This document shows positions 4,586 through 31,625 of a stretch of 64,000 nt of DNA, in pieces. Origin of the DNA: Brevundimonas huaxiensis. Lineage in GTDB: Bacteria > Pseudomonadota > Alphaproteobacteria > Caulobacterales > Caulobacteraceae. The stretch lies in contig NZ_JABBJE010000001.1 in assembly GCF_014218725.1 (NCBI RefSeq), positions 930,001 through 994,000 of the forward strand. The letters are read 5' to 3'. Below the pieces are notes generated by a model. It was given only the letters and a program-made list of their open reading frames with translations, had not been told where the DNA came from and did no database searches. Each line of letters opens with the position of its first letter. Position 1 is the stretch's first letter. Both the position numbers and the translations under genes were made by a program.

Positions 4586-4614
4586 TTGACATTAGCAAGG
4601 AACACTTACAGAAC
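4586..4614 (+). promoter_or_regulatory. lexA promoter with -10 element built into a LexA half-site
   Basis: TTGACA (4586-4591) and CAGAAC (4609-4614) are separated by 17 bases. The -10 match is poor by itself, but it ends in GAAC, one half of LexA box 1, and the same design occurs at the sidA-like gene (TTGACC-N17-TAGAAC). Transcription would start near 4621, about 50 bases before the lexA ATG. Confidence 0.5.
4600..4614 (-). promoter_or_regulatory. LexA (SOS) box 1, reverse orientation
   Basis: GAAC-N7-GAAC is the reverse complement of the alphaproteobacterial LexA operator GTTC-N7-GTTC. It overlaps the proposed -10 element of lexA, so bound LexA would block polymerase and give autoregulation. 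Confidence 0.75.
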
Positions 4615-4624
4615 ATCGACAAAT

Positions 4625-4639
4625 GTTCACGGCCCGTTC
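4625..4639 (+). promoter_or_regulatory. LexA (SOS) box 2, forward orientation
   Basis: GTTC (4625-4628) and GTTC (4636-4639) are 7 bases apart, an exact alphaproteobacterial LexA box. It lies about 10 bases downstream of box 1 and in the opposite orientation, just after the expected transcription start. Two opposed boxes suggest cooperative or tight autorepression. Confidence 0.8.
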
Positions 4640-4671: not shown

Positions 4672-5370
4672 ATGCTCACGCGCAAACAGCACGAACTGCT
4701 GATGTTCATTCATGAACGCATCCAGGAGACCGGCGTCTCCCCTTCGTTCGACGAGATGAAGGAGGCGCTCGATCTGGCCTCCAAGTCCGGCATTCACCGT
4801 CTGATCACCGCGCTGGAGGAACGCGGCTTCATCCGCCGTCTCGCTCACCGCGCTCGCGCTTTGGAAGTCACGAAACTGCCCGAACAGGCGACGGCCGGCG
4901 CGCCGCGCGGTCGCGCCGGGTTCAAGCCCGACGTCATCGAAGGCGGCGGCGGTGTCAGACCTGCGGCCCCGATGGCGGCCAACGACACACGCGAACTGCC
5001 GCTGATGGGCAAGATCGCCGCCGGCACGCCGATCGACGCGATCGAGTATGAAACCGCCCGCTACCCGGTTCCGGAATCGATGCTGGGTTCTGGCGAGCAC
5101 TATCTGCTGGAGATCGAAGGCGACTCCATGATCGAGGCCGGCATCCTGAACGGCGATATGGTGGTGATCAAATCGACCGACAACGCCGCCTCCGGCGAGA
5201 TCGTGGTGGCTCTGGTCGAGGGCGAGCAGGCGACGCTGAAGCGCCTCCGCAAGAAGGGGGCCTCGATCGCGCTGGAACCCGCCAACCGCAACTACGAGAC
5301 CAAGATCTACGGTTCGGATCAGGTCGCCGTTCAGGGCAAGCTGGTCGGCCTCATGCGCCGGTATCACTGA
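4672..5370 (+). CDS. lexA: LexA repressor, SOS regulator and self-cleaving serine protease
   Basis: A 232-residue protein with an N-terminal winged helix (about residues 1-66), a linker longer than that of E. coli LexA (202 aa in total), and a C-terminal S24 peptidase domain. The cleavage site is Ala117-Gly118 in KIAAGTP; the catalytic pair is Ser152 (EGDSMIEAG) and Lys190 ([10 protein letters not shown]), with spacing as in the family. On DNA damage, RecA filaments stimulate self-cleavage and release target promoters. It is preceded by two LexA boxes, so it is autoregulated. Its last 20 bases overlap the 3' end of comEC on the other strand. Confidence 0.97.
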
Positions 5371-27154: not shown

Positions 27155-30619
<3,465 letters not shown>

Positions 30620-30780
30620 GCCTTCTTCGACCCTGGCCCGCTACCGAGTACCCTATCTTGAGTCTCATATCGGGCGTCGCGCGGCCATCGCAAACCGGTC
30701 GCCCGACAGATCGGCTGTGGATCGCTGGCTTCAGACGGTTCTCGAAAAAACACCGTCTAAAGTGTCTAATTCGTCTGATC
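30620..30780. other. dnaE upstream region with repeats
   Basis: 161 bases between the sidA-like stop and the dnaE start. Three copies of GTCTRA occur at a 9-base period (plus 30755, 30764 and 30773). A 7-bp inverted repeat AGACGGT/ACCGTCT spans 30733-30758 without a T-run. A weak promoter candidate, TTGCGA-N18-TATGAG on the minus strand, lies within 30668-30697. No convincing further gene is present. Confidence 0.35.
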
Positions 30781-30873
30781 TCAGGCGGAGACGCTGATCG
30801 CCACGGTCCAGACCATCCATACGAAACCGCCGCACGACGCCAGCGACAGCATATCCCTCATCAAACGCGGCAT
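30781..30873 (-). CDS. sidA: SidA-like SOS-induced membrane microprotein (30 residues)
   Basis: A 30-codon gene reading MPRLMRDMLSLASCGGFVWM for the first 20 residues, then a hydrophobic end (VWTVAISVSA) and TGA. A basic N-terminus plus one short transmembrane helix is the layout of Caulobacter SidA, a 29-residue inner-membrane SOS protein that blocks division by acting on FtsW/FtsN. The identification rests on size, topology, an exact LexA box in the -10 element, and position beside dnaE; I could not align it to SidA, so the symbol is provisional. AAGG lies a few bases before the ATG. It reads toward dnaE, and read-through is possible. Confidence 0.65.
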   Translation of the reverse strand: MPRLMRDMLSLASCGGFVWMVWTVAISVSA

Positions 30874-30899
30874 GACCTTGGCTCCGAGACATCCGATAT

Positions 30900-30914
30900 G
30901 TTCTGCGAATGTTC
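30900..30914 (-). promoter_or_regulatory. LexA (SOS) box of the sidA-like gene
   Basis: GTTC (30900-30903) and GTTC (30911-30914) are 7 bases apart, an exact alphaproteobacterial LexA operator (GAAC-N7-GAAC read in the direction of the gene). It lies 26 bases before the microprotein ATG and overlaps its -10 element. It is far less well placed for msrA, which starts 88 bases away on the other strand. Confidence 0.85.
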
Positions 30915-30939
30915 TATGTTGGCGTTTTGTTCCGGTCAA
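30911..30939 (-). promoter_or_regulatory. Promoter of the sidA-like gene
   Basis: Read on the minus strand, TTGACC (plus 30934-30939), a 17-base spacer, and TAGAAC (30911-30916). The -10 contains a LexA half-site. Predicted start near 30904, giving a leader of about 30 bases. Confidence 0.7.
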
Positions 30940-31001
30940 GACGTTCTTGGTGAAACCGTTTGCGCGTCGCCGTCGTAGTCAATGCAACAGGAGATGAGAC
31001 C

Positions 31002-31625
31002 ATGTCCCTTCGCACGACCGCCCTCGCCGCCGTTGCATCCTTGACCGTCGTTGCCCTGTCGATCGGCGCGCCCCTGGCCCGTCAAGCCGAGGCGCAGACG
31101 GCGCTTCAGACCGCAATCTTCGCCGGCGGCTGCTTCTGGTCGGAGGAGAAGGCCTTCGACGACGTGCCGGGGGTGCGCTCGGCCGTGTCCGGCTTCGTCG
31201 GGGGCCATACCGCCAACCCGACTTATGAGCAGGTGGTGCGCGGCGGCACGGGCCATATGGAGGCGGTGCAGGTGATCTTCGATCCGCGCGTGGTCAGCTA
31301 TCGTACTCTGGTCGATCGCTATTGGCGCACCATCGACCCGACCGATCCGAACGGTCAGTTCTGTGACCAGGGGCCGTCCTATCGATCGGCCGTCTTCGCG
31401 ACAGCAGCCCAGCGCGCGGACGCCGTCGCCTCACGCGATGCGGCGATGCGTGTGTTGAGAAAAAGCTTCACCACGCCGGTCGTCGGCGCTCAGCGGTTCT
31501 GGCCAGCGGGCGAGGAACACCAGAACTACGCCAAGCGCCACGCCGCCAGCTACCAGGCCTACCGGATCGGATGCCGCCGCCCCGAACGCCTGAGAGCGAT
31601 CTGGGGCGACGCCGCCGTCAGTTGA
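31002..31625 (+). CDS. msrA: Peptide-methionine (S)-S-oxide reductase MsrA, exported
   Basis: A 207-residue enzyme that reduces methionine-S-sulfoxide. The catalytic Cys44 is in FAGGCFWSEEKAF; RGGTGHMEAVQVIFDP, FCDQGPSYRSAVF and EEHQNYAKRHAASYQAY are family blocks. The N-terminus (MSLRTTALAAVASLTVVALS followed by ARQAEAQ) is a signal peptide, so the enzyme should act in the periplasm. I chose ATG 31002, preceded by AGGAGATGA; a frame open to 30960 would spoil the signal. The gene converges on lolD with a 15-base gap. Confidence 0.93.
   Translation: MSLRTTALAAVASLTVVALSIGAPLARQAEAQTALQTAIFAGGCFWSEEKAFDDVPGVRSAVSGFVGGHTANPTYEQVVRGGTGHMEAVQVIFDPRVVSYRTLVDRYWRTIDPTDPNGQFCDQGPSYRSAVFATAAQRADAVASRDAAMRVLRKSFTTPVVGAQRFWPAGEEHQNYAKRHAASYQAYRIGCRRPERLRAIWGDAAVS

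Follow-up and report, generated by a model that had tools for sequence, protein, structure and literature searches.

We identified a short gene upstream of dnaE in Brevundimonas huaxiensis that encodes a predicted single-helix membrane peptide. Judged by its sequence and setting, the gene is very probably a Brevundimonas-type ortholog of Caulobacter sidA, whose promoter would be kept off by LexA bound to tandem operators. The gene lies in a 64,000-nucleotide stretch of contig NZ_JABBJE010000001.1, hereafter the window. SidA of C. crescentus is described as an inner-membrane protein of 29 residues with FtsW as its target (PMC4211646).

The open reading frame runs from 30873 to 30781 on the minus strand (ATG at 30871-30873, stop at 30781-30783) and comprises 30 codons plus the stop, 93 bases in all, which bears out the frame, start and stop proposed in an earlier sequence-only reading of this DNA. 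We assign it as sidA (30781..30873, minus strand) on the basis of the frame, the SidA profile match and the alignment. Its product, MPRLMRDMLSLASCGGFVWMVWTVAISVSA, has one transmembrane helix as judged by hydropathy only (best 17-residue hydropathy at least 1.3). A likely ribosome-binding site, GGAG (30882..30885, minus strand), is found 8 bases before the ATG, and by eye a similar GGGGAT or GGAG is present in many promoters of the genus. The span from the stop to the promoter (30781-30939) coincides with a 52-codon frame that begins with TTG, while the start conserved across the genus is the ATG. This 52-codon frame has 26 relatives in protein databases, and the five that are named, one of them from Brevundimonas nasdae, are all called 'hypothetical protein', so the earlier description of the gene as unannotated was right in substance. 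The msrA gene is divergent from the peptide gene, and dnaE, encoding the replicative DNA polymerase III alpha subunit (27155..30619, minus strand), begins 161 bp downstream of the peptide stop.

The kinship with SidA, also put forward in that reading, is supported by several features, namely a match to the NCBIfam equivalog model NF033228 (div_inhib_SidA, 29 positions), an alignment, almost free of gaps, with peptides from the family's other genera, the place upstream of dnaE and the LexA operator. The model matches residues 1-25 of the peptide at 27.6 bits (E 2.1e-6), below its cut-off of 35 bits, and a six-frame search of the genome with it gave a single match at E<=1, at the peptide locus (25.4 bits). 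Across 61 genomes of the genus, 58 have a match at E<=1 and just one, at 35.5 bits, exceeds the cut-off; the SidA name is missing from annotation of the genus because the scores fall under this threshold. The peptide of a Caulobacter-type genome (L041) reaches 57.8 bits, and 23 of 24 chosen family peptides match at E<=0.1. Seven of 14 control genomes also match, Caulobacter vibrioides among them, with one over the cut-off. In the alignment, the FVWM core and the N-terminal motif follow SidA, as judged from other Caulobacter loci and from the NCBI model, not from the C. crescentus SidA sequence itself. The peptide is like C. crescentus SidA in its length of about 29 residues, one helix, basic N-terminus and LexA control, and the peptide in Caulobacter loci has the same location ahead of dnaE. 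The Brevundimonas branch differs in the sequence SCGGFVWMVW, in its score under the NCBI cut-off and in having two operators 18 bp apart.

Other small division inhibitors offer further comparisons. DidA of C. crescentus is likewise described as a small single-helix inhibitor of the FtsW/I/N complex, but, unlike SidA, has 71 residues, is SOS-independent and binds FtsN (PMC4211646), and we set it apart on that description. YneA, SosA and ChiZ are presented as damage-induced single-helix division inhibitors that are modelled on FtsW TM7 (PMC13396833). They belong to other phyla, YneA and ChiZ have a LysM domain, and we liken them to the peptide without a claim of homology.

Upstream of the gene, the -35 element TTGACC (30934..30939, minus strand) and the -10 element TAGAAC (30911..30916, minus strand) match the sequence exactly with 17 bases between them, just as had been read before. 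The GAAC of the -10 element opens the proximal LexA operator, GAACATTCGCAGAAC (30900..30914, minus strand), an exact GAAC-N7-GAAC found by motif scan and conserved in relatives; here too the earlier reading was correct. A scan for operator pairs detected a distal operator, GAACAAAACGCCAAC (30918..30932, minus strand), with one mismatch and 18 bp upstream of the proximal one. This second site, absent from the earlier reading, leads us to reject a single-operator promoter. LexA on the two tandem operators, which overlap the -35/-10 region, would hold the promoter off. At 45 of 51 loci of the genus, the scan scored an upstream operator at exactly this distance, allowing one mismatch, a count that leaves out two further loci (L009 and L097) with exact operator pairs at the same distance, for which the script took another proximal site. 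A generic sigma-70 scan of 30550-31010 found no promoter. The sigma73-like form, which we take to be TTG[AC]C-N15-19-TANN[AT][CT], precedes the peptide in 39 of 49 genus loci, or 40 of 49 with a relaxed -35.

How much weight the operator can bear depends on its conservation. The window holds 4 exact boxes against 1.67 expected, and at least 4 occurred in 9 of 100 shuffles; this count is near chance, so the LexA box alone is weak evidence, and on that footing the gene might be a chance open reading frame adjoining a chance box. The evidence becomes strong because the exact box is conserved near dnaE across the genus, being found within 600 bp of dnaE at 46 of 51 loci, whereas the other strand had none in 51 and shuffles averaged 0.80/51. 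Genome-wide, there are 119 exact boxes versus 52 for the reversed motif.

Conservation of the frame and of the LexA box in related genomes had been named in the sequence-only reading as one test of its proposal, and both are conserved. The genus sample comprised the DNA upstream of dnaE at 51 loci from 50 genomes (L171 duplicates L109), and the peptide is present at all 51. A box followed by a helix peptide was scored in 24 of the 51 with an exact box and a hydropathy limit of 1.5, and in 49 with one mismatch and a limit of 1.3; L009 and L097 fail even this relaxed rule, although each has a box and a peptide. The peptide is under purifying selection, with a median dN/dS of 0.27 (943 pairs with dS between 0.05 and 2, from 45 distinct coding sequences of 27 codons). 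Variability by codon position is 0.225/0.123/0.312, third positions being the most variable. Two loci, L017 and L018, are outside the 49 used for the dN/dS, terminator and promoter counts, since the regular expression missed their GGVVW. Ten chosen relatives at rising distance were paired with the window, and in all ten pairs the coding part is better conserved than the dnaE spacer.

For the other genera of the family, the stretch upstream of dnaE was scanned at 60 loci, and at 59 of them a helix peptide follows a box that has no more than one mismatch; the SidA regular expression found 57 of these and the other two were found by reading. This conservation in genus and family, together with the coding-type substitutions, leads us to reject the chance reading, to which we give virtually no probability; moreover, none of the controls of the strict scan described below (shuffled sequence, other strand, reversed motif) produced the combination of box and peptide. 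Among named Caulobacteraceae contigs, 65 of 67 were positive by the relaxed scan, plus L202 with a GTG start, and the peptide precedes dnaE in records under the names Brevundimonas, Caulobacter, Phenylobacterium and Asticcacaulis. The exception among the 60 loci of other genera, L067 (genus g27), is, like L231, without the peptide or any GAAC half-site in the 900 bp or less covered upstream of dnaE. The record L273 (Phenylobacterium sp. J367) has a typical SidA peptide and a dnaE query identity of 54 percent, below most Phenylobacterium records.

Other genes of the SOS response are consistent with this regulation. The presumed repressor gene, lexA, is itself in the window (4672..5370, plus strand), and the exact box GAACACTTACAGAAC 57 bases before it (4600..4614, plus strand), one of the 4 in the window, is its own operator. 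A second match near lexA is on the opposite strand at 4625-4639. The recA gene of the same genome (L363) is preceded by the LexA operator GAACATCTTGTGAAC. The operator of the peptide in the Caulobacter-type loci L031-L040, L042, L043 and L047, about 190-205 bp before dnaE, is identical to this recA operator. In C. crescentus, lexA (CC1902) and dnaE (CC1926) are likewise near each other by gene number (PMC1839093), and delta-lexA cells are reported to filament via sidA (PMC12700426). By its operators, the Brevundimonas peptide would be induced in the SOS response.

For this peptide we infer a membrane topology, binding to FtsW and a block of division. Any short hydrophobic peptide could act otherwise on the membrane, and an SOS-controlled one might cause an ion leak or strike another part of the divisome, as TisB- and DinQ-type toxins would exemplify; TisB is a membrane peptide toxin of the SOS-induced type. 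Such a different target would fit the very different helices seen outside the family. We nevertheless consider it unlikely, given the FVWM core and N-terminal motif shared with SidA, whose target in C. crescentus is FtsW (PMC4211646), and given the conservation of three FtsW residues. The substitutions A31K, F145L and A246T in FtsW are reported to suppress SidA in C. crescentus (PMC4211646), and the FtsW of the window genome has A, F and A at the corresponding places (numbering from a Caulobacter-type FtsW, with its start assumed). Among the 7 sequences compared, an eighth (L340) having been dropped for a wrong frame, F145 and A246 are kept in all and A31 in 5; A31 is not invariant, being G in a Caulobacter-type genome (G213) and S in G137. 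AlphaFold 3 models, not of high confidence, place SidA on TM7 of FtsW (PMC13396833).

The position of the gene also raises the question of its relation to dnaE. No terminator-like site was found between peptide and dnaE in any of 49 genus spacers or in that of the window, and no sigma73-like promoter between the peptide start and dnaE (0/49, with 0.85/49 expected for the relaxed form from base shuffles). Read-through from the peptide promoter into dnaE is therefore plausible. The same two absences, and the constant place upstream of dnaE, could point to a leader peptide, that is, a uORF that tunes dnaE and whose amino-acid sequence would be relevant only to translation-coupled control. However, the distance from the peptide stop to dnaE varies across the genus between 25 and 308 bp, which argues against tight coupling, and a leader would leave unexplained a membrane-helix sequence that is under purifying selection and matches SidA. 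We regard a leader peptide as very unlikely, and a SidA ortholog with possible read-through into dnaE as the better account.

The same layout extends beyond the family. Our strict rule called for an exact box, an ATG 15-80 bases further on, a frame of 24-45 codons, a hydropathy of at least 1.5 and a position within 600 bp of dnaE. It was matched at 13 of 20 loci in other families of the order and at 12 of 88 in other orders, the latter sample being the top scorers for dnaE out of 128 matched genomes, drawn from 86 families. None of the three controls yielded box plus peptide in any group: the other strand and the reversed motif each scored 0, and shuffled sequence 0.00. Of the 88 other-order loci, 76 lack the strict pattern, 75 of these having no exact box; 12 of 13 named loci outside Caulobacteraceae also lack the layout. 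Taken alone, exact boxes occur at 13 of the 88, 12 of which have the peptide; the corresponding counts are 7 for the other strand and 1.05 for shuffles. With one mismatch and a hydropathy of 1.3, the reversed motif scored 2/88 in other orders, 0/20 in the order, 3/60 in the family, 3/51 in the genus, 9/67 in named Caulobacteraceae and 0/13 in the other named loci, and the other strand scored 1/51 in the genus and 0 elsewhere.

Within particular orders the layout is frequent. For the orders of G384 and G365, the strict rule found it at 25 of 30 and 3 of 3 loci; for that of G254, where many of the peptides have 46-47 codons, it did so at 15 of 30. When the rule was loosened to admit any common start, 24-60 codons and a hydropathy of 1.3, the counts became 26/30 for G384, 26/30 for G254 and 3/3 for G365, with 0 on the other strand; the samples of 30 were the best-scoring of 35 and of 60 dnaE matches. 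The G254 group includes Parvibaculum: the peptide at L383 is the same as in L279, a contig titled Parvibaculum, and a database relative is labelled Parvibaculaceae.

The motif (K/R/Q)(D/E)xx(A/G/S) precedes the helix in most outside-family peptides. The helices themselves vary greatly from order to order (L112, L113, L116 and the order of G384), with motif and place constant, as if the helix were tracking a changing partner such as FtsW. In a comparison of profiles, 22 outside-family peptides matched 24 family peptides with a probability of 95.6 and a score of 33.2, a score that none of 200 layout-keeping column permutations reached (maximum 17.4). Permuting the N-terminal part only still gave up to 31.3, indicating that much of the signal is in the helix. 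The other-order peptides by themselves, untrimmed, scored 29.3, and 0 of 150 permutations reached this value (maximum 15.8). We found no family model for the outside-family micropeptides: the SidA model matched none of the 22 at E<=0.1, and Pfam gave only weak matches to unrelated families (best E 0.016). Taken singly, HMM matches outside the family are weak, with E no better than 0.0065; E falls below 1 at 10 loci, and the match is an operator-linked peptide at all of them except L312. On these comparisons, we think it likely that the outside-family peptides are distant SidA homologues.

A wider model, which we offer tentatively and rate as somewhat doubtful, is that SidA belongs, as one branch, to a module of ancestral alphaproteobacterial origin in which LexA controls a sidA-dnaE transcription unit made up of a fast-evolving, FtsW-directed micropeptide and a replicase gene expressed by read-through. 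In the literature searched, whose coverage excluded most subscription journals, such a module of LexA box, micropeptide and dnaE is not named, and the searches returned nothing that joins sidA, dnaE and Caulobacter, or a small membrane protein with LexA and dnaE. A search of the dnaE fragment against viral contigs gave no match. If the model is true, damage would derepress a single promoter for both, tying the checkpoint to the replicase in one SOS operon far outside Caulobacter.

With this work, Brevundimonas gains a named, putative SOS division inhibitor, its identity given by sequence, that annotation has missed in nearly the whole genus, and the NCBI SidA cut-off appears too strict for this branch. 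The layout of box, micropeptide and dnaE in other orders provides a list of candidate division inhibitors, and the peptides linked to dnaE outside the family, in this order and in others, deserve to be followed up. The shared layout also offers a testable link from the SOS checkpoint to the gene for the replicative polymerase.
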